A stretch of DNA of 64,000 nucleotides from Streptomyces mirabilis. GTDB taxonomy: Bacteria; Actinomycetota; Actinomycetes; Streptomycetales; Streptomycetaceae. The stretch is from positions 1 through 64,000 of the forward strand of contig NZ_JBCJKP010000001.1 of NCBI RefSeq assembly GCF_039503195.1, written 5' to 3'. Positions 13,537 through 25,773 of this stretch are shown in pieces. Each line of letters opens with the position of its first letter. Position 1 is the first letter of the stretch. Made by a program: the position numbers and the translations under genes. The notes under the pieces were generated by a model. The model did not search any database. It saw only the letters and a list, made by a program, of their open reading frames with translations, and had not been told where the DNA came from.

Positions 13537-14394
13537 GTGGCTCGCGTCGTTTGCGTGCACGGAGTGGGCAAGCAGCTGCTGGGGGAACGCACGCTGCTGC
13601 GGGACTGGTGGCCAACGTTGCTGGACGGCCTGGCCAGGGCGGGTGGCGACGAGGCGGCCGCCGGCGACGGCGCCATGGCGTTCTACGGCGACCTGTTCCG
13701 CCCGCCCGGTGAATCCCTGGGCGTCGGCGACCCCCTCCTCGGACCCCAGGATGTCGAGCCGGGATGGGAGCAGGAGCAGCTCCTCGCGTGGTGGCGCGCG
13801 GCCGCCGAGGCCGATCCCGCGGTGGCGCCACCCGGCGCTGACACTCTGGCGCGCGTGCCCGGGTCCGTGCAGGCGGCGCTGCGCCAGCTGTCGCGCTCGA
13901 GGTTCTTCGCCGGGATCGCGACGCGCGCGCTGGTCTTCGACCTCAAGCAGGTGCACCGCTACCTGGCCGATCCCGAGCTGCGGGCGGCGGCCCGGTCCCG
14001 GCTGGCGGCGCTGATCGAGCCAGACACCCGGGTGGTGGTCGCACACTCGCTGGGCACGCTCGTGGCGTACGAGGCGTTGTGCGCGCGGCCGCACAGCGTG
14101 AGGGCGCTGGTGACGCTCGGGTCGCCGCTCGGGATCCGGAACCTGATCTTCGACCAGCTCGAACCCGCGCCCATCGACGGGCTGGGGGCCTGGCCGGGCC
14201 CGGACGACCTGGTGTGGACGAACGTCGTGGACCGCGGCGACGTGGTCGCACTGGAGAAGGACCTCCGCTGCCGGTTCGGCGACCGGGTGCACAACGTCGT
14301 TGTGCACAACGGCTCCCACGCGCACGACGCCGCCGCGTACCTGACCGACCGGCTCACCGGCGCCGCCATCGCCGGAGGGCTCGGTGAACGGTGA
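13537..14394 (+). CDS. Alpha/beta-hydrolase, operon partner of caspase-STAND protein
   Basis: A 285-residue serine hydrolase of lipase/esterase type. VCVHGVGK (residues 6-12) is the oxyanion-hole loop; VVVAHSLGTLVAYEA holds the nucleophile elbow with Ser171; an Asp near 232-235 (TNVVDRGDV) and His263 or His261 (HNGSHAHDAA) complete the triad. It resembles PGAP1-like/GPI-deacylase-type hydrolases that act on lipids or esters; the substrate is unknown. Start GTG 13,537 follows GAGGGGGC. It overlaps the next gene by 11 nt, implying translational coupling. No signal peptide, so it acts in the cytosol. By context it may be an effector, or a regulator, of the caspase-STAND system. Confidence 0.85.
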   Translation: MARVVCVHGVGKQLLGERTLLRDWWPTLLDGLARAGGDEAAAGDGAMAFYGDLFRPPGESLGVGDPLLGPQDVEPGWEQEQLLAWWRAAAEADPAVAPPGADTLARVPGSVQAALRQLSRSRFFAGIATRALVFDLKQVHRYLADPELRAAARSRLAALIEPDTRVVVAHSLGTLVAYEALCARPHSVRALVTLGSPLGIRNLIFDQLEPAPIDGLGAWPGPDDLVWTNVVDRGDVVALEKDLRCRFGDRVHNVVVHNGSHAHDAAAYLTDRLTGAAIAGGLGER

Positions 14395-17300
14395 CGACCC
14401 GGTACGGCGGTTCCTGATCGCGACCGCGGTGGCGCACTACGCGAAGGCGCCGCGGTGGGACCGGCCCAGCCTCGTACACGCGCGGGAGCGGATCATCGAG
14501 CTGTTCACCGGCACTCTCGGCTACACCCTCGTCGACGACCTCGGCCTCGACCCGACCCGCGAGCAGCTCACCAGCCGGCTCCGCGCCTTCTGCCGCGCCC
14601 CCGACCGGCGGCCGGACGACGTGCTCGCGGTGTACGTCGCGGCGCATGGTGAGGTGCTCCAGGGCAGCGAAGACCACGTCCTGCTCACCGCGGACACCGA
14701 CCCGGACGACGTCGCCGACGCCCTGCCCACGGCGGAACTGGCCCGGCGAATGCTGCTCGACACCCCCGTGCGGCGGCTGCTGCTGATGCTCGACACCTGC
14801 TACTCCGGCCAGGGCGGCAACGAGCTGACGGCCGCAGCGCTCACCAGGATGACCCGGCACTGGGCGGGCGAGGCAGGCACAGGGCTCGTGGTCATCACCT
14901 CCGCCCAGCCCGTGGAACAGGCGAGCGTCGGCGCGTTCCCCCGACTGCTGGGTGACGCCGTCGTGGACGTCTCAACCGCGGGCCACGCGCCGTCCACCCT
15001 GCCGCTGGACACGGTGGTCAAGGCGATGAACGCCAACCCGGCCCGGCCGCGCTTCCAGATGATCGGCTCGGCGATGGCCGCGCTCACCGGCGAGGTGCCG
15101 CCGTTCCTGCCCAACCCGCGCCGCGACACCCGCCCGTCGGGCGTGGACCTCGCAATCCAGCAGGCCGTGGAGTGGGACGCCGAGGCGCGGCGGCGGGACG
15201 GCGAGTTCCGCGCCACCCTGCTGGTCCGGGCCAAGGGCGGGGACGGGTGGTGGTTCTCCGGGCGGGTGGCCGCCCTGCGCGACATCGCACGCTGGCTCGC
15301 CGAGCCCGACCCGGCGCGACCGCTCCTCGCGGTGACCGCCGCGCCCGGGTCCGGCAAGACCGCGGTCCTCGGCCTCGTCTCGACGCTGACCCACCCGGAC
15401 CGGCGTCCCATGGTGCCCGTCGACACGATCGGCCTGCCGCCGGACGCCGTCCCCGCCGTCGGAGCGGTCGACGTCGCCGTGTACGCGCAGAACCTGACCA
15501 CCGACCAGGTGCTGCGGGGGATCGCCGCCGGTGCCCGCGTGCCCGCCGAGACGCCGGGTGCGCTGCTCGACGCGCTGACCACGCCGGTCACCGTCCTCAT
15601 CGACGCGCTCGACGAGGCGGCCGACCCTCACGACCTCGTCCTGCGGCTGCTGCGCCCGCTGGCCGACCACGCGGCGGGCCGGCTGCGCCTGCTCGTCGGC
15701 ACGCGGCCGCACCTGCTGGCGGACCTCGGACTGCGGCGGGACGGCAGCGTGGACCTCGACGCATCCCGCTACGCCGACCTCGACGCCCTGACCGCGTACT
15801 CGGCGCGCTGCCTGCGGGAGTCGGCGGCCGAGAGCCCCTACCGGGACCGGCCCCACGCGACCGCCGCCGTGGCTGCGGCGGTCGCGGCGGCCGCCACCCC
15901 GTCGTTCCTGGTCGCCCGCATCACCAGCGGCACCCTCGCGGCGGACACAGCGATCCCCGACTGGCGCGACCCGGTGTGGCGCGCGGCGCTGCCGCGGCTG
16001 CCCGGGCCAGCAATGCGCCACGACCTCGTGACCAGGCTCGGCGGCGACGCCGAGCGCGTGCGCGACCTGTTGCGGCCGCTGGCGTTCGCCGAGGGGCAGG
16101 GCCTGCCGTGGGAGGACATATGGGCACCGCTCGCCGCCCGGCTGGCCGGGACGGGGTACGGCGACGAGGACCTGCAGTGGCTGCGCCGCCACGCCGGCTC
16201 GTACGTCGTCGAGGCGGTCGAGGCGCACCGCTCCGCCTACCGCCTGTACCACCAGGCGCTTGCCGAGCACCTGCGTGAGGGCGTCGACGCCGTCGCGGCG
16301 CACGGCGCGTTCACGGAGGTGCTGCTGTCGCGGGTCCCGCTCGACCACACCGGCGAGCGGCTCTGGTCGCGAGCGCACCCGTACCTGCTGCGGCACCTCG
16401 CGACGCACGCCGCGCGGTGCGGGCGACTGGACGAACTCGTCGCCGATCCCGGCTACCTGGCCCACGCGGAACCCGACGAGTTGCTCCCCGCACTCGACCA
16501 CGTCACCACGCCCGGCGCCCGCCTGGTGCGCTCGGTCTACCGCGCCTCCTCCGGCGTGCACCGGCGCCTGCCGCCGCAGCGGCGCCGCCTGGTGCTCGCC
16601 ACGGACGCGGCGAGGTTCGGCGCGACCGAGCTGCACCGGGCGCTCGTGCCGCCCCTGCGGTGGTTCCCGCGCTGGGCGACCGGGCAGCAGATCAGCTCCG
16701 CCCTCCGCGCGACGCTCGTCGGCGGCGACAAGCCGGTGACGGCGAGCGCGTGCACCGTCCTCGACGGTCGCCCCGTCGCGGTCACCACGGGCCACGACTG
16801 CGTGGTCCGGCTGTGGGACCTCGACACCGGGGCCGTCCGCGCCACGCTCACCGGTCACACGGACACGGTGGACGCGGTCGCGTGCACGGTCGTGGACGGG
16901 CGTCCGCTCGTGGTGACCGCGGGCCGCGACGCTGAGCTGCGGGTGTGGAACCCGGCCACGGGCGCGGTGTGGAGCACGCCCACCGGCCACGGCCGCCACC
17001 TGAACACGGTCGCGTGCGCCGAACTCGACGGCCGTCCCGTCGCCGTGGTGGGCGGACCGGCGCTCGAGGTGTGGGACGTCCACAGCAGCACCCGCGTCGC
17101 CGCCTACGCCTGTTCCGTCGACGCGCTGGCGTGCACGGTCCTCGACGGCCGACCGGTGGCCGTCGTCGCGACCCACTCGAACGTCCTCGTGGTGGACCTG
17201 GCCACCGGCGCGCAACGCAGGATCACCGACGACTTCCTCGGCGGTCACGGGTTCCGCGCGGTGGCCTGCACCGTCCTACATGGACGTCCGGTCGCGGTGT

Positions 17301-18547
17301 CCGGCAGCACCGATGGCAGCGTCCGGGTGTGGGACCTCCACAGCGCAGAGGAGGCGCTTGCCCTCATCGGTCACGAGAACACGGTGACCTCGGTGGACTG
17401 CAAGGTGATCGACGGCGAGACCGTCGCGGTCACCGGCGGGATCGACGGCACCGTCCGGGTGTGGGGCCTGGTCACGGGCGAGTCGCGCGCGGTCATGGCC
17501 GGCCACGAGCACTTCGTGTCGTCGGTGACCTGCACCGTCCACAGCGGACAGCCGGTCGCGGTGAGTACCGGGCTCGACGGCACGGTGCGGGTGTGGGACC
17601 TCACCGCGTCCGTGCGCGCCCGCCTGCCCGCCGCCGGCCACACCTCGGACATCGGCGCGGTCGCGACCGCGGTCGTGGACGGCGTTGCCGTGGCGGTCAC
17701 CGCCGGGCACGACGACGTCGTCCGGGTGTGGGAACTCGACACCGGGCGCCTCCGCGTCACCCTCACCGGGCACAGGAGCGCCGTCTATGCTGCCGCGTGC
17801 GCCGTCGTGGCCGGACAGCCCGTAGCGATCACCGGCGGGGACGACGAGACCGTGAGGGTCTGGGACCTGGCCAGCGGGACGCCGGCGTCTACCTTCACCG
17901 GCCACAGGGGACCAGTCAGGGGGATCGCGTGCACGACTCTGGCGGGACGGCCCGTGGCGGTCAGCGCCGGGGCGTACCACGACTCGCTGTTCGTCTGGTG
18001 GCTCGACACGGGCGAGGTGTGCCGCGAGATCCACACCAGGCACGAGATCGCGGTGAACGGCATCGCGTGCTCGGGCGTTGGCGGGCGGCCGCTCGCGGTC
18101 TCGGTCGGCTACGACGGAACCGCGTGGGTGTGGGACCTGACCACGGGCACCCGGCGCGCGGCGCTGACGGGACACGACGGCACCGTGGAAGCAGTGGCAT
18201 GCGGATCGGTCGACGGCCGTCCCGTGGCGGTCACCGGCGGCCAGGACACGTACGTCCGAGTGTGGGACCTGACGACCGGTGCCGCCCTGCACGCCCTCGC
18301 GGGGCACGAGCGCCCGATTGCCGCGATCGACTGCCGCGCACTCGACGGCGTGCCCACCGCGCTCTCCGTCGACAGTGGAGGGTCGGTGCGGTTCTGGGAC
18401 CTGCGGAACGGCACGCAGCGTGACGCGTTCGACGTAGCCGGCATGATCCGCGGTGCGCTGTGCGTCGGCCCGCGCGGGGAGATCGTGGTCGGCACCGGTT
18501 GGGACCTCGTGGTGTTCGACCGCGCCGAACCATCGAGCACGGTGTAG
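14384..18547 (+). CDS. Caspase-like / STAND-type ATPase / WD40 protein
   Basis: A 1,387-residue multidomain protein. Residues about 1-240 are a caspase-like (C14) peptidase domain with catalytic His88 (VYVAAHGEV) and Cys139 (LMLDTCYSGQGG). Residues about 285-640 are a P-loop STAND/NACHT-type NTPase: Walker A APGSGKT (320-326), Walker B TVLIDALDEA (403-412) and sensor-like LLVGTRP. A helical arm follows. Residues about 780-1380 hold 14 WD40 units (typical WDLDTG, GGxDGTVRVWDL, LTGH), enough for two seven-bladed propellers. GTG 14,384 has GGAGGG 10 nt upstream and overlaps the hydrolase stop. By analogy with known caspase/STAND proteins, the propellers would sense a ligand, the NTPase oligomerise and the caspase cut a target. 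The link to defence or programmed death is inference. Confidence 0.9.
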   Translation: MNGDDPVRRFLIATAVAHYAKAPRWDRPSLVHARERIIELFTGTLGYTLVDDLGLDPTREQLTSRLRAFCRAPDRRPDDVLAVYVAAHGEVLQGSEDHVLLTADTDPDDVADALPTAELARRMLLDTPVRRLLLMLDTCYSGQGGNELTAAALTRMTRHWAGEAGTGLVVITSAQPVEQASVGAFPRLLGDAVVDVSTAGHAPSTLPLDTVVKAMNANPARPRFQMIGSAMAALTGEVPPFLPNPRRDTRPSGVDLAIQQAVEWDAEARRRDGEFRATLLVRAKGGDGWWFSGRVAALRDIARWLAEPDPARPLLAVTAAPGSGKTAVLGLVSTLTHPDRRPMVPVDTIGLPPDAVPAVGAVDVAVYAQNLTTDQVLRGIAAGARVPAETPGALLDALTTPVTVLIDALDEAADPHDLVLRLLRPLADHAAGRLRLLVGTRPHLLADLGLRRDGSVDLDASRYADLDALTAYSARCLRESAAESPYRDRPHATAAVAAAVAAAATPSFLVARITSGTLAADTAIPDWRDPVWRAALPRLPGPAMRHDLVTRLGGDAERVRDLLRPLAFAEGQGLPWEDIWAPLAARLAGTGYGDEDLQWLRRHAGSYVVEAVEAHRSAYRLYHQALAEHLREGVDAVAAHGAFTEVLLSRVPLDHTGERLWSRAHPYLLRHLATHAARCGRLDELVADPGYLAHAEPDELLPALDHVTTPGARLVRSVYRASSGVHRRLPPQRRRLVLATDAARFGATELHRALVPPLRWFPRWATGQQISSALRATLVGGDKPVTASACTVLDGRPVAVTTGHDCVVRLWDLDTGAVRATLTGHTDTVDAVACTVVDGRPLVVTAGRDAELRVWNPATGAVWSTPTGHGRHLNTVACAELDGRPVAVVGGPALEVWDVHSSTRVAAYACSVDALACTVLDGRPVAVVATHSNVLVVDLATGAQRRITDDFLGGHGFRAVACTVLHGRPVAVSGSTDGSVRVWDLHSAEEALALIGHENTVTSVDCKVIDGETVAVTGGIDGTVRVWGLVTGESRAVMAGHEHFVSSVTCTVHSGQPVAVSTGLDGTVRVWDLTASVRARLPAAGHTSDIGAVATAVVDGVAVAVTAGHDDVVRVWELDTGRLRVTLTGHRSAVYAAACAVVAGQPVAITGGDDETVRVWDLASGTPASTFTGHRGPVRGIACTTLAGRPVAVSAGAYHDSLFVWWLDTGEVCREIHTRHEIAVNGIACSGVGGRPLAVSVGYDGTAWVWDLTTGTRRAALTGHDGTVEAVACGSVDGRPVAVTGGQDTYVRVWDLTTGAALHALAGHERPIAAIDCRALDGVPTALSVDSGGSVRFWDLRNGTQRDAFDVAGMIRGALCVGPRGEIVVGTGWDLVVFDRAEPSSTV

Positions 18548-19480: not shown

Positions 19481-19727
19481 GCGTGTGCCCATGAACGCGT
19501 GCGCCGACCGTAGACGCCGACACCGGCCCGGACAGCGCCAAAGGCAGGGAAGGCAAGCCCACCGGGTGACACCGGCCGCCACAGACGTGCCAGGCGGGAC
19601 GCCACCCGGTAAAACACGGCGGTACCGGCGTCGTCTGATGCAGGGTTTTGCACCCGTTCACCCCTCCCTCTCAACACACTCAGGCCCGCCTACCAGCCAG
19701 GGCGGGACGGCGCAACGTTCGCGCTTC

Positions 19728-20066
19728 ATGCAGGTGCCGCTGCACGAGGCGAAGGCGGAGTTCTTCCGGATGCTCGGGCATCCGGTGCGGATAAGGGTGC
19801 TGGAGCTGTTGCAGGACGGGCCGAAGCCGGTGCGTGACCTACTGACGGCGATCGAGGTCGAGCCGTCGAACCTCTCGCAGCAGCTGGCGGTTCTGCGCCG
19901 CTCGGGGATCGTCACCGCCACCCGCACCGGCTCCACCGTGGTGTACGAGCTGGCGGGCGGGGACGTGGCCGAGCTGCTGGCCGCGGCGCGCCGGATCCTG
20001 TCCGTTCTGGCGGCGGGCCGTCGGGATTTGCTGGATGAGCTGCGTGTCACGGAGCCGGCGCCGTGA
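19728..20066 (+). CDS. ArsR-family winged-helix regulator (copy 1)
   Basis: A 112-residue ArsR-type repressor. The winged helix-turn-helix is complete: AKAEFFRMLGHPVRIRVLEL, LQDGPKPVRDLLTAIEVEPS, NLSQQLAVLRRSGIVTATR and the wing TGSTVVYELAGG, followed by a C-terminal dimer helix. The ELCVCDL metal motif is absent, so a non-thiol signal is likely. Start ATG 19,728 matches the paralogue starts (MSVPLYQAKAEFF). It is about 60% identical by eye to the ArsR at 25,432-25,773, which controls a SulP operon. Its own likely target was the truncated kinase gene downstream. Confidence 0.88.
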   Translation: MQVPLHEAKAEFFRMLGHPVRIRVLELLQDGPKPVRDLLTAIEVEPSNLSQQLAVLRRSGIVTATRTGSTVVYELAGGDVAELLAAARRILSVLAAGRRDLLDELRVTEPAP

Positions 20067-20087
20067 TGGGCGGACGCTCGTTCCGGC

Positions 20088-20289
20088 CGTGGCGCCGAAG
20101 CCGGGCCGCAGCAGCGGTAGGTGTCGCTGACGCCGAGCCGCATCTGCCCGAGCTCGAACCGGGCGCGACGGGCGCGGGCTGCAGCTGGTGGCCGAGCTGG
20201 CCGCCGAGTACGACGGCGACGTCAGCGCGGCACGGGCCGCCGACCATGACGGCAAGGTAGTCCTCGTCCGGTTCCCCCTGTCGTCGTAG
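20088..20289 (+). pseudogene. RsbW-like ATP-binding protein, C-terminal remnant
   Basis: After a frameshift the sequence reads GRGLQLVAELAAEYDGDVSA then DHDGKVVLVRFPLSS and stop, the tail of HATPase anti-sigma-factor kinases including the G2 box (GRGL). The piece before it (GVADAEPHLPELEPGATG) fits the preceding loop in another frame. The N box and G1 box are lost. Confidence 0.55.
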
Positions 20290-20332
20290 GCCGTATCAAT
20301 GTGGAGATCGCGGGAAGCAAGGAGACAACACT

Positions 20333-20518
20333 GTGAGTGGTAGAGCTGAGGCGACCGAGCGGCGGAAAAGCAAGCGGGGCGAGCGGAAGGCCAAGAACGG
20401 GGAGTGGCGGATCGAGCGCGGTGTCGCGATCCGGGCGGGCTTTTACATCTTCGGCACCCATCTGTTCGCCGGGTTCGTGTGGCTGCTCTTCTACCTGGGC
20501 GAGCACGCGCACAAGTGA
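20333..20518 (+). CDS. DUF6126-like small membrane protein
   Basis: A 61-residue protein with a charged N-terminus (ERRKSKRGERKAKNG) and one C-terminal membrane segment (AGFYIFGTHLFAGFVWLLFY), matching the Streptomyces DUF6126 pattern. Function is unknown. Start GTG 20,333 has AAGGAGA 8 nt upstream. In other genomes I recall such genes beside XRE regulators; here the neighbours are ArsR genes. Confidence 0.75.
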   Translation: MSGRAEATERRKSKRGERKAKNGEWRIERGVAIRAGFYIFGTHLFAGFVWLLFYLGEHAHK

Positions 20519-20840
20519 CCAGGAATCAGAGAGGCTGCGTTCCCCACGGAACGGGGCCGACCCGCCTCGTCTGAGGACCGGTCGGCCCTATGGGAACACC
20601 GGTGCAACAGTGAAGCTGTGGATCAAAGGAGCTGGCGGGTGGTCGTTCTTCTCTTGCGCCGCCACCCCTGCCTCCCATCCGGCGCACTGCCCTGAAACAC
20701 AGCTTGAAGACTTTCTCGCTTGGCTGGGGGCCGTGACCGGGGTGGATGGCGAGACACGTCACTCGGGGGTGAAGCGGCCGCCTCCCGCTACCACAGAGCG
20801 CTGTCAGTCCCGGGAAGCGGCCGCCGGTTGAGGGTCGCCG

Positions 20841-21191
20841 TCACGACGGCGGTTTCGCCTGGGTCTGGGCGGCCTGCAGATCGGCGAGGAGCTCGGCTTG
20901 TCCGGCGAGCACGCCGGACAGGATGGTGCGGGCGACCCTGAGCAGCTCGGCGATATACGGGCTGGTCAGCGAGTAATACACCGTCGATCCCTCTTTACGG
21001 GTCACCACCAGGTTCGCCCTCCGCAGCACCGCGAGCTGCTGCGACAGATGCGCTGCTTCGATCCCTACCTCCGGGAGCATCTCCGCGACCGCGTGCTCGC
21101 GCTCGCTCAGCAGCTCCAGGACCCGGATGCGCGCCGGGTGGCCGAGCGTCTTGAAGAACTCGGCCTTCAGTTGGTACAGCGGCGTACTCAT
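20841..21191 (-). CDS. ArsR-family regulator (copy 2), divergent to zinc-ribbon gene
   Basis: A 116-residue winged-helix repressor starting MSTPLYQLKAEFFKTLGHPA. The helix-turn-helix (LPEVGIEAAHLSQQLAVLRR) and wing (KEGSTVYYSLTSPYIAELL) are complete, with no clustered cysteines. ATG 21,191 follows GGGGAGG. It is transcribed away from the zinc-ribbon gene at 21,405; the 213-nt gap holds a strong palindrome at 21,361-21,376 that is the likely operator. It is more distant from the other two ArsR copies, having lost the V at VRIRVLELL (ARIRVLELL). Confidence 0.88.
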   Translation of the reverse strand: MSTPLYQLKAEFFKTLGHPARIRVLELLSEREHAVAEMLPEVGIEAAHLSQQLAVLRRANLVVTRKEGSTVYYSLTSPYIAELLRVARTILSGVLAGQAELLADLQAAQTQAKPPS

Positions 21192-21360
21192 CGTGTCGTC
21201 GCCTCCCCGGTACGGCAGCACGGCCGCACCAGGCCGTCCTCGGCGCATCCCATCAACCCACTCGTCAAACACATGTGGCCATCCTCGCGTGCGACAGCGG
21301 CCCAGCCGAATCCGCGCACGAGAACCGAGCCGCCCGAATCCAGCAGTGCGACCTCAGCAA

Positions 21361-21376
21361 TTGCTAAGATTAGCAA
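21361..21376. promoter_or_regulatory. Candidate ArsR operator
   Basis: The perfect palindrome TTGCTAA-GA-TTAGCAA (7-bp arms, 2-bp spacer) lies between divergent ArsR and zinc-ribbon genes, about 30 nt before the zinc-ribbon start. AT-rich dyads of this size are typical ArsR sites. Confidence 0.6.
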
Positions 21377-21404
21377 CTCCATATGTGATGTGAAGGAGGC
21401 TGGC

Positions 21405-21584
21405 GTGAGAATCATTCCGCTGCGTGGCGCGGGCGTCGCCTGGTTCAAGTGCCCCGCCTGCCGCCTCAAGTGCCGGCCCACCGCCGTCGGCCCGGACGGG
21501 CAGTGCCCGCGGTGCGGCGAGGCCCGCATGCTGAAGCTGTCCTTCGGCGGCCGGGCCACCGCGTCGGACGGCGGCCGGAGCTGA
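21405..21584 (+). CDS. Small zinc-ribbon protein
   Basis: A 59-residue protein with two cysteine pairs (WFKCPACRLKC and GQCPRCGEARM) forming a likely zinc ribbon. Start GTG 21,405 has GAAGGAGG at 21,392-21,399. No catalytic domain; possibly a regulatory or adaptor protein. It is divergent from the ArsR gene and 33 nt before the phosphosulfolactate-phosphatase-like gene, so the two probably form an operon under the 21,361 palindrome. Confidence 0.7.
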   Translation: MRIIPLRGAGVAWFKCPACRLKCRPTAVGPDGQCPRCGEARMLKLSFGGRATASDGGRS

Positions 21585-21617
21585 CCCGCACGCGGCTCCG
21601 CCACGGGGGGATGGACC

Positions 21618-22412
21618 ATGGGTGACTGGACGGTTCAGTCCGGCACCGGGATCCGCTTCGAGTGGGGACCCGCCGGCGCGGGGCGCCTCGCCGGAGAGGC
21701 TGCCTGTCTGATCGTCGTTGACGTGCTGTCCTTCACCACGGCGGTGAGCATCGCCGCCGAGAGGGGCATCCGGGTTCTCCCGTTCAGGCTGCCGGACGGC
21801 CCCGCCACCACGGCCGAGCGGGCCGCATCAGAGAAGGCCGCCGCCGTCTACGCGCGGCAATCCGGAGCACGGCTGGCCGTCGCCCGCCACGCCGTGACGC
21901 CCGACAGTCCCTGGTCCCTCTCACCGGCCCACATGGGCCGCGCCCCGTTCGTCGCGCGCCTGGTGCTGCCGTCCCCGCACGGCGCGGCCATCGCCGCGGC
22001 CGCACCGCCTCACGTGCGAGTGGTCGCCGCCTGTCTGCGCAACATCACCGCGGTCGGCAGCTGGCTCGCGGGCCGCGGCTACGGCTCGCCCGCGCATCCG
22101 GTCGCCGTGATCGCAGCGGGCGAGCGATGGCCGGACGGCAGCCTGCGCCCCGCGTTGGAGGACCTGCTGGGCGCCGGCGGCCTCATCTCCGACCTGCACG
22201 CCCAGGGCGCGGGACCGCTGTCCGCCGAGGCAGCCGCCGCGAGAGCGGCCTACGAGGGCACCGCCGATCTCACCCGCGCGGTCGCCGCCGGTGTCTCCGG
22301 GCGGGAGCTGGCAGCAAGAGGCTTCGTCCAGGACGTGGCCATCGCCACGGAAGGGGACATCTGCGCTGCCGTGCCCGTACGGGATGGGGACGGAGCCTTC
22401 TCCCCCGGCTGA
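21618..22412 (+). CDS. 2-phosphosulfolactate phosphatase-like (ComB family)
   Basis: A 264-residue ComB-fold protein. In methanogens ComB hydrolyses 2-phosphosulfolactate during coenzyme M synthesis; actinobacterial homologues have no proven substrate. Visible are LIVVDVLSFTTAVSIAAERG (conserved Asp), the glycine-rich VLPSPHGAAIAAAA, VVAACLRNITAVGSWLAGRG and VAVIAAGERWPDGSLRPALE with DLLGAGGLISDL. Start ATG 21,618 follows GGGGGGATGG. It lies in an apparent operon with the zinc-ribbon gene and converges on the SulP operon, so a link to oxoanion or sulfonate stress is possible but inferred. Confidence 0.85.
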   Translation: MGDWTVQSGTGIRFEWGPAGAGRLAGEAACLIVVDVLSFTTAVSIAAERGIRVLPFRLPDGPATTAERAASEKAAAVYARQSGARLAVARHAVTPDSPWSLSPAHMGRAPFVARLVLPSPHGAAIAAAAPPHVRVVAACLRNITAVGSWLAGRGYGSPAHPVAVIAAGERWPDGSLRPALEDLLGAGGLISDLHAQGAGPLSAEAAAARAAYEGTADLTRAVAAGVSGRELAARGFVQDVAIATEGDICAAVPVRDGDGAFSPG

Positions 22413-22423
22413 GCCCGGCGGGA

Positions 22424-22837
22424 TCAGGCCCGATGCTGGTCTCCGGTCGGCTGCCCTGTCGTCTGCCACTCGGGGCGGCCCTGCGGCGGCTCGTCGTGCC
22501 GTGTGCTGTGTGCGGCGAGCGCGCCAGCCAGGTCGGCGTGCACGGGGATGAGCGGGCAGTCTCCGCCGGGGACGAGAGATCCGTCGGCGGGGATCGCGGC
22601 CAGTTCCAGGCTGCGGCCCGATGCGGCGAGACGGCGCGCGGCCTCGGTGATCGCCAGCTGCCCCTCGGCCGACCAGCCGCGCAGTCCGGTGAGGTCGACG
22701 ATGACCGGACCGGTGCCCCGGGCCAGCGCCCAGCCAACGGCACCGGTGAAGCGGTGGACGGCGTCCGGGCCCAGGTATCCGGAGACGGACAGGATGCCGA
22801 GGTCCTGCTCGACGGTGTAGCGCCACTCGATGGTCAT
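22424..22837 (-). CDS. STAS-domain anti-sigma-factor antagonist-like protein
   Basis: A 137-residue SpoIIAA/RsbV-type STAS protein. The core reads LGILSVSGYLGPDAVHRFTG, VGWALARGTGPVIVDLTGLR and GWSAEGQLAITEAARRL. Phosphoacceptor Ser/Thr in the D-x-S loop is likely the serine of GWSAEG, followed by a second helix. ATG 22,837 is chosen because GGAAG is 8 nt upstream. It is the last gene of the operon descending from 25,773 and lies 35 nt after the ATP-binding kinase-like gene, its natural partner in a partner switch. Confidence 0.8.
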   Translation of the reverse strand: MTIEWRYTVEQDLGILSVSGYLGPDAVHRFTGAVGWALARGTGPVIVDLTGLRGWSAEGQLAITEAARRLAASGRSLELAAIPADGSLVPGGDCPLIPVHADLAGALAAHSTRHDEPPQGRPEWQTTGQPTGDQHRA

Positions 22838-22872
22838 GTGCGTCAACTTCCTTGCGCGGTCAGCCTGGCGAT

Positions 22873-23298
22873 TCAGAGGGGGAGGGTGATCCAGATGCTT
22901 TTGCCCTGGCCGTCGGCATCACTCCGTACGACGGCCGTGCCGCCCAGGCCGAGGGTGAGCTCCATGACCGTGCCCAGACCGCCGCCACCGGTTTGGGTGA
23001 CCGCGCCGTACAACGCCGGCTGGTAGGGGTGACGGTCATGGACGGCGAAAGCCAGACAGTCCTTGCCCGCCGCGTAGATGACGGTCAGCTGCGGGGAGAG
23101 GTCGGCGGCATGCCGGACGGTGTTGGTGACCAGTTCACCGAGGATCAGCAGGGCCGGATCGACGCTGGGGTGACGCAGGCTGATACCCCACTCGGCCAGC
23201 GCCTGCTCGGCGGTTTCCCGGGCCATGCGGACCGCGGACGGCATCGTCGGCAGCGTGAGGACATGCCGGTAGGGCAGGGTTTCGAGCCGAGTGCTCAT
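22873..23298 (-). CDS. RsbW-like ATP-binding protein (anti-sigma kinase type)
   Basis: A 141-residue GHKL-fold protein. The N box is LLILGELVTNTVRHAA; the G1 region AFAVHDRHPYQPAL replaces the usual DxGxG; G2 is GGGGLGTVMELTLGL. These are the marks of Streptomyces HATPase_c_2 anti-sigma-factor kinases. The start overlaps the stop of the preceding PNPOx-like gene (TGATG), and GGAGG lies just upstream of ATG 23,298. It is expected to phosphorylate or bind the STAS protein encoded next. The degraded tail at 20,088-20,289 appears to be a relative. Confidence 0.85.
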   Translation of the reverse strand: MSTRLETLPYRHVLTLPTMPSAVRMARETAEQALAEWGISLRHPSVDPALLILGELVTNTVRHAADLSPQLTVIYAAGKDCLAFAVHDRHPYQPALYGAVTQTGGGGLGTVMELTLGLGGTAVVRSDADGQGKSIWITLPL

Positions 23299-23705
23299 CA
23301 CGCCTCCGCGCGGGCGAGGCGGAAACCGGTCACCGTCTTGGGGTTCAGGCGCAGCAGGGTGTCGTGCGGGCCGTGGCTCCAGCCGGCGAGGGTGCGCTGG
23401 TAGTGGGCGGCCTCGTCAGGCTCGGTGATCACGTCGACCGGCCCGGCGACCGTGACGCTCCAGCCGGTACCGGTCGCCGCGCGGACCTCGTCCACCTGGT
23501 AGGTCGCCGTGGCGGGGACCGCAGCGGCAGGTGCCGGGGTGCGCACCACCAGGCGGCCGTACTCCCAGGTGTGCCGGCCCGGGCGCAGGACGGTCAGGTC
23601 CCGCTGCGCGTACACCAGCCGTCCCAGCGCACTGCCCTCGAGCAACCACAGGGCCTCGGCACCCGAGACCTCGACCATGCGCAGGGATGCGGGGGGAGTG
23701 CTCAT
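23298..23705 (-). CDS. Pyridoxamine 5'-phosphate oxidase-like (PNPOx) protein
   Basis: A 135-residue split-barrel flavin-binding-type protein. It begins MSTPPASLRMVEVSGAEALW and shows LLEGSALGRLVYAQRDLTVL, the strand pair that usually reads GRLAF...P, and DEAAHYQRTLAGWSHGPHDT near the C-terminus. Actinobacterial members bind FMN or F420 and are often stress-linked; activity here is unknown. It overlaps both neighbours by 1-4 nt (ATGA with the SulP gene), so it is translationally coupled inside the operon. Confidence 0.82.
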   Translation of the reverse strand: MSTPPASLRMVEVSGAEALWLLEGSALGRLVYAQRDLTVLRPGRHTWEYGRLVVRTPAPAAAVPATATYQVDEVRAATGTGWSVTVAGPVDVITEPDEAAHYQRTLAGWSHGPHDTLLRLNPKTVTGFRLARAEA

Positions 23706-25435
23706 CCGACGGTTTCCTCTGTTTCCTCGCTGATGGGCCAGGACATCTGGGCGGGGTGGAGCGGTATGACACCGGCGCATTCCAGGTAGGTGCGCGCGCC
23801 CTGGATCGCCTCCGGCGTGGTGGCGTACTCGCGTCCCTCCCGTCGCAGCAGCTCCAATGCGCCCACGGAGTCCAGGACCTGACGCTGGCTGGGGCGTATT
23901 CCGGAGGTCAGAACAGCGATGCCGCGCCGGTTGAGCTTCTCCACCGCGTCCTTGAGGACCAGGGCGCCGGTGGCGTCGATGGTGCTCACGCGGGACATGC
24001 GCAGGATGACGACGCGTACGTCGGCGACCTCGGCCAGCTCCAGCAGGAAGCGGTGGGCGGCGGCGAAGAACAGCGGCCCGTCGATCCGGTACGCGACGAT
24101 GTGCTCGGCGAGCAGCGCGTGCTCCTCCGCGCTGTGGTCCCCACGGTCGAGGGGAACCTGGTCCAGGCGCGCCTGTTTGGCCACGGCGCGCAGGGCGAGC
24201 GTGCCCGCGACCATCAGGCCGAGGATCACGGCGTAGACGAGGTCGAGGGCGAGGGTGGCCAGGGCGGTCAATACGAGGATCAGGGCATCTGAGCGGGTGG
24301 CCTTCGCCATCGCCTTGAGCGAGCCGACCTCGACCATCCGGACAGCAGTAGCCAGGAGCACGCCGGCGAGCGCGGCGAGCGGGATCCTGGAGACGAGGGG
24401 CGCGGCAGCAAAGACGATCACGGCGAGGATCGCGGCGTGGGTGAGGGCCGCCAGCCGGGACCCGGCGCCGGTACGGACGTTGACCGCGGTCCGCGCGATC
24501 GCGCCGGTCGCGGGTACCCCGCCGAACAGCGGGGCGGCGATGTTGGCCAGGCCTTGCCCGAACAGCTCGCGGTCCGGGTCGTGCTTCTGGCCGACCGTCA
24601 TGCCATCGGCCACCGATGCCGACAGCAGCGACTCCAGCGCGGCCAGCGCCGCCACAGCGACCGCTGGAGCGAGCAGCGAGCCGAGTGCGCCGACGTCGAG
24701 GAAGGCGAGGGACGGCGCGGGCAGGCCGGACGGCAGGTCCCCGATCGGCTTTGCCGCGTGCAGGCCGGCTACCTGGGCAACGATGGTGGCCGCGATCACC
24801 GCGAGGATGGAGAAGGGGATCGCGGGCCGCCAGCGAGCGCCGACGACCATGACGGCGGCTACCGCGAGGGCGAAGGCGACGGCGGTCCAGTTCGGGTCTT
24901 TCGTGAACGCCTCCAGGGCGCGCCAGGTCACCACGAGGACACGGTCGCCCTCCGGCTTGGGCACCCCGAGGGCATTCGGGATCTGCTGCAGTCCGATCAC
25001 GCAGGCGATGCCGAGCGTGAAGCCTTCGACGACCGGGGCGGGCACGTACTGCATGTACTTCCCGGCCCGAAGCAGGGCGAGCGCGACGAGCATCACGCCC
25101 GCCATCAGCCCGACGGTGAGCACCCCGGACGGCCCGTGCTCGGCAACGATCGGCACCAGCACGACCGTCATCGCGCCCGTCGGTCCGGACACCTGCAGAT
25201 TCGAACCACCGAACACCGCGGCCAGCGCGCCGGCGATGACCGCGGTCGCCAGACCCGCCTCCGCGCCCAGCCCGGAGGAGACGCCGAAACCGAGCGCGAG
25301 CGGCAGCGCGACGATCGCCACCGTGAGGCCGGCCAGCAGGTCCCGGCGCAGGTCGCGCCGCATCTCCGCCAGGTCCGTACGGCCCGGCAGCAACGCAGTG
25401 AGCCGGGCCCCGATCCGGCCGAACGAGAGCCTCAT
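23702..25435 (-). CDS. SulP-family anion transporter with STAS domain
   Basis: A 577-residue SLC26/SulP permease for sulfate, bicarbonate or a related anion. The membrane domain (about residues 25-420) has the SulP signature LLAGLTVAIVALPLALGFGV and FGGSNLQVSGPTGAMTVVL. A cytoplasmic STAS domain (about 440-560) includes VRVVILRMSRVSTIDATGAL and LKDAVEKLNRRGIAVL. It overlaps the upstream ArsR stop and the downstream PNPOx start as ATGA. No carbonic anhydrase is fused or adjacent, which argues slightly for sulfate. Repression by the coupled ArsR is likely. Confidence 0.93.
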   Translation of the reverse strand: MRLSFGRIGARLTALLPGRTDLAEMRRDLRRDLLAGLTVAIVALPLALGFGVSSGLGAEAGLATAVIAGALAAVFGGSNLQVSGPTGAMTVVLVPIVAEHGPSGVLTVGLMAGVMLVALALLRAGKYMQYVPAPVVEGFTLGIACVIGLQQIPNALGVPKPEGDRVLVVTWRALEAFTKDPNWTAVAFALAVAAVMVVGARWRPAIPFSILAVIAATIVAQVAGLHAAKPIGDLPSGLPAPSLAFLDVGALGSLLAPAVAVAALAALESLLSASVADGMTVGQKHDPDRELFGQGLANIAAPLFGGVPATGAIARTAVNVRTGAGSRLAALTHAAILAVIVFAAAPLVSRIPLAALAGVLLATAVRMVEVGSLKAMAKATRSDALILVLTALATLALDLVYAVILGLMVAGTLALRAVAKQARLDQVPLDRGDHSAEEHALLAEHIVAYRIDGPLFFAAAHRFLLELAEVADVRVVILRMSRVSTIDATGALVLKDAVEKLNRRGIAVLTSGIRPSQRQVLDSVGALELLRREGREYATTPEAIQGARTYLECAGVIPLHPAQMSWPISEETEETVG

Positions 25436-25773
25436 CGCCCGGCGACCTGGGTTTCCCGCAGCTCTGCCAGCAGCTCGTTCTTCCCTGCCAGCAGCTCGGT
25501 CAGAATGCGGCGCGCGGCCCCCATCAGGTCGGCGACATCCCCGCTGGCCAGTTCGTAGACCACCGTCGAGCCTTCGCGTATGGAGGTGACGATGCCCGAG
25601 CGACGCAATACCGCCAGTTGCTGCGACAGGCTGGCGGGCTCCACCTCGATCTCGGCCAGCAGCTCACGAACCGGCATCGGCCCGTCCTGCAGCAGCTCCA
25701 GCACCCGTATCCGTACGGGATGCCCCAGCATCCGGAAGAACTCGGCCTTGGCCTGGTACAGCGGAACGGACAC
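25432..25773 (-). CDS. ArsR-family regulator (copy 3), first gene of SulP operon
   Basis: A 113-residue winged-helix repressor starting MSVPLYQAKAEFFRMLGHPV. It has a complete helix-turn-helix (LAEIEVEPASLSQQLAVLRR) and wing (REGSTVVYELASGDVADLM), with no metal-binding cysteines. It is translationally coupled to the SulP gene (ATGA). A palindrome about 100 nt upstream (25,866-25,885) is a likely autoregulatory site. It is closely related to the ArsR at 19,728-20,066, which suggests a local duplication. Confidence 0.9.
   Translation of the reverse strand: MSVPLYQAKAEFFRMLGHPVRIRVLELLQDGPMPVRELLAEIEVEPASLSQQLAVLRRSGIVTSIREGSTVVYELASGDVADLMGAARRILTELLAGKNELLAELRETQVAGR

Follow-up and report, generated by a model that had tools for sequence, protein, structure and literature searches.

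In a window of 64,000 nucleotides (nt) of Streptomyces mirabilis DNA, bases 1–64000 of a 10.97 Mb contig, we analysed two overlapping open reading frames (ORFs) on the forward strand, one for an alpha/beta-hydrolase and the other for a protein joining a caspase domain, a STAND nucleoside triphosphatase (NTPase) and 14 WD40 blades. Because of its conservation, the pairing is not due to chance: the hydrolase–caspase pair is the evolutionary unit, and the sensing body fused to the caspase varies, STAND-WD40 being one of several. With moderate confidence, we read the pair as a two-gene NLR-like cell-death or defence module, in which activation would run from sensor to NTPase to caspase to hydrolase. 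The initial annotation had proposed a candidate undescribed system. Its interpretation holds as to a conserved, co-diverging, patchily distributed unit of several phyla, with retained catalytic residues, an Apaf-1-like NTPase and a caspase fold. The claim of novelty does not, since Kaur et al. 2020 (PMC7159879) already report the caspase/alpha-beta-hydrolase pairing. The window pair is a stand-alone NLR-like form of a pairing known from ternary systems and is only partly new. The features of the pair are as follows.

13537..14394, + strand: alpha/beta-hydrolase gene; 285 amino acids, GTG start (ORF call; fold model with a predicted local distance difference test score, pLDDT, of 91.7)
14047..14049, + strand: nucleophile Ser171 (AHSLG); 24/24 in alignment A1 and 80/80 rows, the latter in part built into the scan pattern
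14239..14241, + strand: acid Asp235; 24/24 (A1), 80/80 rows
14323..14325, + strand: base His263; 24/24 (A1), 80/80 rows
14374..14394, + strand: junction with 11-nt overlap; GGAGGG ribosome-binding-like box, GTG of the second gene within the end of the first
14384..18547, + strand: caspase-STAND-WD40 gene; 1387 amino acids, GTG start (Pfam and structure matches)
14384..15103, + strand: caspase domain, residues 1–240
14645..14647, + strand: catalytic His88; 73/73 aligned caspase domains
14798..14800, + strand: catalytic Cys139, with Asp137 two residues N-terminal; each 73/73
15140..16660, + strand: STAND NTPase and helical arm, approximately residues 253–760; P-loop from 320, Walker B from 405
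16682..18544, + strand: 14 WD40 blades, approximately residues 767–1387 (Pfam and repeat reading)

The two ORFs (13537–14394 and 14384–18547) share 11 nt, and the GGAGGG box lies immediately 5′ of the second GTG, inside the hydrolase gene. The GC content at the three codon positions was 0.79/0.51/0.91 for the hydrolase and 0.76/0.55/0.93 for caspase-STAND-WD40, so both ORFs fit real high-GC genes. The overlap had been noticed in the initial annotation, as had the motifs of both proteins: HGVG at residues 8–11 and AHSLG containing Ser171 in the hydrolase, and His88 (AAHG), Cys139 (LDTCYSG), APGSGKT at 320, LIDALDE at 405 and 14 WD40 blades in its partner. All were recovered at their positions.

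To follow the hydrolase across species genomes, a scan with a 24-sequence alignment was performed, which gave at least 386 confirmed relatives, and the best 80 were analysed. A caspase ORF was detected with a local caspase profile within 400 nt of the hydrolase in 71 of these 80, and hand reading of L075 (caspase at 601 nt) raised the count to 72 of 80 within 700 nt. At L128, a WD40 gene overlaps the hydrolase by 4 nt and the contig then ends. The hydrolase comes first in 53 of the 72 pairs and the caspase in 17, of which 13 overlap by exactly 4 nt; the remaining two, L144 (Kibdelosporangium) and L154 (Amycolatopsis), have the hydrolase and caspase-NTPase genes transcribed divergently. The hosts include Actinomycetota, Cyanobacteriota, Acidobacteriota, Pseudomonadota, Bacteroidota and Verrucomicrobiota. 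The window's own genome carries a paralogous pair at approximately 2.599 Mb, also with overlapping ORFs, with a hydrolase 55% identical and a protease ORF of 1812 amino acids, 41% identical over a 784-position alignment, whose C-terminus matches beta-propeller models in Pfam. Around its third caspase (G000:C1:5504541), nothing of the pair type was found in the surrounding 18 kb by phmmer with the hydrolase, caspase, STAND and WD40 parts of the window and the paralogue caspase. At L040:1868-5863, a STAND-WD40-type protein without a caspase domain follows a hydrolase, its ORF beginning at the hydrolase stop.

In the reverse direction, a search of 296 genomes (the window's own among them) with the window caspase domain gave 39 places at E<=1e-8, spread over 33 genomes, and all 39 (the window and 38 other stretches) were inspected. 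In 31 of them, the caspase or caspase-STAND gene has a hydrolase ORF next to it; among these, the L074 hydrolase is only an 83-amino-acid piece, two loci are broken (L192 and L204) and three are divergent (L194, L207 and L208). When only places with a STAND profile were considered, 31 of 34 had the hydrolase, the misses being L196, L202 and L203. The genome search for the gene pair suggested in the initial annotation found pairing both ways, in 72/80 hydrolase relatives and 31/34 window-like caspase-STAND genes.

The two proteins also diverge together. Pairwise distances of hydrolases and caspase domains were correlated at 0.78 (Mantel test, Spearman; n=72), against a maximum of 0.25 in 999 permutations; within the 37 Streptomyces-labelled rows, window included, the correlation was 0.75 vs 0.31 in permutation, at hydrolase identities of 34–95%. 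His88, Asp137 and Cys139 are kept in all 73 caspase domains. Ser171, Asp235 and His263, the latter two identified by alignment, are kept in all 80 hydrolase rows; for the serine, the scan pattern in part ensures this, and L143, for which no intact ORF was found, is not among the rows. The 24-row alignment A1 had omitted relatives, five of them Ser-less. Among 45 further ORFs, from the reverse-test loci and 14 omitted relatives, the triad is present in 38; the other seven are two fragments (L074 and a piece in L192) and the five Ser-less relatives. The latter (L048, L049, L050, L052 and L069) carry AHGLG, GHALG, GHALG, GHGLG and GHDLG, respectively, and are apparent pseudo-enzyme paralogues judging from these motifs. 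No caspase neighbour was seen at the five loci; by eye, L050 and L052 adjoin a prephenate-dehydratase-like gene.

The body fused to the caspase is exchanged among relatives. Among the 72 partner ORFs, 39 had at least three WD40 matches, 25 had a STAND profile with fewer, and eight had no STAND profile, the WD40 profile being built from the window's own repeats and several short partner ORFs being cut by contig ends. Eight C-termini of the 25 were rechecked with Pfam; five matched beta-propeller models, so propellers are commoner than the count of 39. The C-terminus of L118 is formed of TPRs (Pfam), and L133 is nearly identical. L141 is a caspase-VMAP-M1-VMAP-C protein and L131 a caspase-iSTAND protein, both above cut-offs. 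In L131, L141 and L152 (cyanobacterial and verrucomicrobial loci), the hydrolase–caspase unit heads multi-gene sets, with AAA and VWA_CoxE proteins downstream in L131, and AAA and FGE-sulfatase proteins, with no vWA match, in L141 and L152. According to Kaur et al. (PMC7159879), domains of this kind serve as effectors of vWA components. A MoxR/vWA reading beyond L131 was rejected, as Pfam gives AAA with VWA_CoxE in L131 alone; the large third gene has FGE-sulfatase models in L141 and L152 and helicase models in L065, and no vWA model. At the same-genus loci L065, L068, L071 and L072, a related hydrolase precedes a protein with VMAP-M2 above cut-off; the caspase motifs (GHG, DTCH) of L065, L071 and L072 were recognized by eye, and the Pfam caspase model does not match them.

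In a 90-row maximum-likelihood tree, VMAP-linked hydrolases fell on two separate supported branches (L141; L065/L068/L072), or three if L152 is counted, whose VMAP label was given by eye and whose caspase protein has no VMAP match. A supported cyanobacterial clade mixes VMAP, iSTAND and STAND-TPR partners, and the window hydrolase groups with Amycolatopsis, Saccharothrix and Nocardia rows in a supported clade of seven. Some labels of STAND without WD40 stem from cut contigs or weak propellers, which inflates the label changes of that group. The hydrolase family adjoins caspases fused to VMAP, iSTAND, STAND-TPR and STAND-WD40 bodies. In the genome of the window itself, VMAP-C matched above cut-off at G000:C1 4979806, 4663773 and 8365922, and below it at 1006957, so VMAP-type systems coexist with stand-alone pairs.

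In Kaur et al. 2020 (PMC7159879), every caspase-bearing VMAP protein is said to have an alpha/beta-hydrolase gene as neighbour, and a related hydrolase is placed among the effectors of a GAP1-type system. The window likewise has a caspase domain and a neighbouring hydrolase gene, and its hydrolase is 40% identical to that of L141, a cyanobacterial locus where caspase-VMAP-M1-VMAP-C is accompanied by genes for an AAA ATPase and a large FGE-sulfatase protein. In contrast to the VMAP ternary system, the window pair is without an adjoining MoxR ATPase or vWA gene; no VMAP model matched residues 1–780 of its protein, the VMAP-C places of the genome lying elsewhere; and in place of VMAP its caspase is joined to an active-looking STAND NTPase and 14 WD40 blades. 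Because it has no VMAP domain and no adjoining ATPase or vWA gene, the window was not filed as a VMAP system; by analogy, the pair probably works like one as to caspase and hydrolase. The iSTAND ternary system (PMC7159879) is represented by L131, with a hydrolase 41% identical, caspase-iSTAND, AAA ATPase and VWA_CoxE, whereas the window NTPase retains its P-loop and Walker B and the ternary genes are absent. A STAND-WD40 version with the hydrolase was not found in the consulted parts of Kaur et al. 2020, supplementary data aside, nor was a printed description of the stand-alone pair in the open-licence literature, as far as the sources were covered. A literature search found no functional test of the caspase–hydrolase pairing reported in 2020.

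Metacaspase-NACHT-WD40 proteins were described as 'widely distributed' by Asplund-Samuelsson et al. 2012 (PMC3501461). The window protein shares their domain order, with caspase, NTPase and WD40 in one chain; it has an alpha/beta-hydrolase neighbour, whereas no mention of one was found in the consulted parts of that paper. CARD-NLR/gasdermin systems (PMC12881547, PMC13236601) resemble the window in combining an NLR-like protein, a protease and an effector, in their case one that acts on membranes; in the window, protease and NTPase form a single chain. Neither a gasdermin nor a CARD model was among the Pfam matches listed (the best 25 of 35 for the WD40 protein), and no search aimed at CARD was made. 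The EACC1-caspase system, with a caspase of its own subfamily and an EACC1 gene 5′ of it, differs, as the window caspase scored 52.2 bits with NF047832 vs a cut-off of 140 and its 5′ gene is a hydrolase. The animal apoptosome of Apaf-1 with caspase-9 resembles the window in that Apaf-1 was the top Foldseek match of the NTPase core. The Apaf-1 apoptosome recruits its caspase by CARD; in the window, the caspase is instead fused to the NTPase, and there is an extra hydrolase.

Pfam Peptidase_C14 matched above cut-off when residues 1–240 were searched alone (31.6 vs 21.4 bits), and the protease model was nearest to caspases, metacaspase-4 and MALT1. NPHP3_N, a STAND-type NTPase model, also matched above cut-off (28.0 vs 24.8), and the Pfam NACHT model was not among the matches of the protein. 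The W-D-like motifs of the fourteen WD40-type repeats span residues 808–1375, and the blades probably form two seven-bladed propellers. Mean pairwise identity across 13 repeats was 41% with a maximum of 61%; with no near-identical repeats, concerted evolution was rejected. Compared with six relatives, the propellers were 36–43% identical and the caspase domains 55–64%, so the propellers diverge faster, which fits a changing sensor and proves nothing. Apaf-1 detects cytochrome c via its WD40 repeats (PMC7159879).

The hydrolase matched Pfam Abhydrolase_1 and PGAP1, both only below cut-off, and no NCBIfam model. Between core strands 45–48 and 166–170 lies a helical insertion of approximately residues 51–160. 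A Ser-Asp-His triad in an alpha/beta-hydrolase fold, as in phospholipases and lipases, is present; the fold ties with esterases and thioesterases, so phospholipid is only a candidate substrate, and in the structure model the likeness to lipases and thioesterases is generic. Alpha/beta-hydrolases occur as lipid-hydrolysing domains fused to a bacterial death-like domain (Kaur et al. 2021, PMC8195603) and are frequent in fungal NLRs (PMC9815663), and phospholipases can replace gasdermin in variants of the CARD-NLR systems (PMC13236601).

From these features, we propose that the WD40 propellers would bind a trigger and the Apaf-1-like NTPase would oligomerize, whereupon the clustered caspase domains would gain activity by proximity. 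An Asp two residues before the catalytic Cys, as in metacaspases and MALT1, goes with cleavage after a basic residue; because Asp137 precedes Cys139 in this way, the caspase probably cuts after a basic residue. It would act on the co-made hydrolase, most likely switching on an enzyme that had been held back. This enzyme would then attack lipids or acyl esters, with death or arrest of the cell as the outcome. That the hydrolase is activated by cleavage, that it attacks lipids and that the module acts against phages are predictions. If the caspase does switch on the hydrolase, the latter would be a new effector class beside caspase-activated gasdermins and nucleases, and the window isolates the pairing of Kaur et al. 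beside an Apaf-1-like NTPase, as just two genes whose size permits cloning and purification.

Tuck et al. 2025 (PMC12799240) report sensor-fused proteases and a MALT1-like caspase that activate separately encoded pro-nucleases, and suggest that further protease-activated enzyme classes may exist. The Canu caspase–nuclease and nuclease–protease pairs of that paper resemble the window in having a separate effector beside a sensor-linked protease, co-evolution and unrelated sensors. Their effector is an MBL-fold nuclease activated by demonstrated cleavage, whereas in the window it is a Ser-Asp-His alpha/beta-hydrolase for which cleavage is presumed. Tentatively, hydrolase and caspase might form an effector cassette that can be transferred among at least four kinds of sensing body (STAND-WD40, STAND-TPR, iSTAND and VMAP), the caspase activating a lipase-like enzyme that is otherwise held back. 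Such a cassette would be the lipid-attacking counterpart of the Hachiman, AVAST and Canu pro-nuclease/protease pairs, and the window would hold its smallest form, which is Apaf-1-like; we regard this as possible rather than probable.

VMAP-type hydrolases have a Gln-Gly dipeptide in each of two variable loops N-terminal to the nucleophile, e.g. residues 70–71 and 130–131 of L065:7333-8298. At both places Gln was found in 121 of 121 and Gly in 120 of 121 sequences (the reference and its 120 best homologues in alignment A6, mostly Streptomyces), and 105 of 120 window-type hydrolases have no Gln-Gly there. By analogy with the dual gating loops of HamM/CanC these could be cut sites; the signature may also be structural, because hydrolases without an adjacent caspase (L146, L148, L149 and L151) have it too. 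Arg106 of the window hydrolase, which lies in a loop modelled with lower confidence, was considered as a cut site and rejected, Arg being present in only 40/68 and 80/121 rows.

The same domains would allow the caspase to be an executioner cutting cell proteins, with the hydrolase as a brake or licensing factor that, for example, deacylates the receptor or holds it inactive. We consider this unlikely: the full catalytic triad is conserved, which makes a pure binding role of the hydrolase improbable, and the published protease–nuclease pairs run from protease to effector (PMC12799240). The proposed machine might, unchanged, serve development or programmed death of the mycelium rather than phage defence. 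Many hosts of the pair are filamentous actinobacteria or cyanobacteria, a habit known generally, and Kaur et al. tie such systems to the multicellular habit (PMC7159879). Its presence is patchy, however, with caspase matches in 33 of 296 genomes and hydrolase matches (E<=0.001) in 34 of 100, own genome included, and it was found in Pseudomonas, Chitinophaga and other lineages; an accessory conflict system fits this better than a conserved developmental programme, which we judge distinctly less probable. An upstream role of the hydrolase, in which it makes or destroys a small lipid-like signal that the receptor senses, is improbable. In the VMAP proteins of Kaur et al. the peptidase class is an alternative to nucleotide-signal-making enzymes (PMC7159879), so modules for signalling are found in comparable positions, but propellers, TPRs and VMAP proteins would all need to read the signal.

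Several observations weigh against the sensor-to-hydrolase module. No PADLOC-DB 2.0.0 family matched either protein at E<=0.01. Foldseek with the hydrolase model gave no match at E<=0.001, many esterases tied in the VIA structure comparison, and the window hydrolase yielded no cut site, its cap loops being conserved and not variable. Eight of the 39 caspase matches are without a hydrolase (L189, L196, L202, L203, L205, L209, L210 and L211). Lack of conservation, loss of catalytic residues and a lone hydrolase, envisaged in the initial annotation as damaging, did not hold as a rule, but seven of the 80 relatives (L145–L149, L151 and L153) had no caspase neighbour by profile, five of them also on hand reading, so the hydrolase can be kept without a caspase; five of these seven genomes carry a caspase elsewhere. 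Enrichment in defence islands, another check named there, was run on proteins of 110–900 amino acids within 6 kb at 23 pair loci, with 19 random stretches as control (20 were drawn, and one overlapping a pair locus was dropped). Of 149 neighbour proteins at pair loci, 110 had matches at E<=1e-10, to 72 PADLOC families; the 25 families listed include oligonucleotide-cyclase and phospholipase-effector models, RmrA, a type IIG enzyme, PD-T4-6 and mad6. In random stretches, 110 of 155 proteins matched 21 families, including mad3 (five members), mad8 (two), PDC-M02A and AriA. The families are redundant, and counts are members per family, not proteins with any match; this weak signal is only suggestive, and we did not rely on it. 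The lone relatives would suit a metabolic esterase beside an unrelated WD40 protein, a reading that is scarcely credible given the two-way adjacency, the co-divergence and both gene orders with overlaps.

A search for phage and plasmid carriage gave matches in 0 of 50,697 phage records and 26 of 72,556 plasmid records, five of which cover at least 80% of the query; these counts carry no weight either way. Apart from the pair, all genes called between 7.4 and 23.7 kb of the window encode at most 269 amino acids, and the neighbours scanned near it were PhoU, PP2C, ArsR-type and 2-phosphosulfolactate phosphatase-like. Within 19485–25773 of the window, ArsR-type regulators (19485–20066 and 20841–21272, and by eye a similar one at 25432–25773) surround the 2-phosphosulfolactate phosphatase-like gene and a SulP/STAS transporter, perhaps a sulfur-related cluster.

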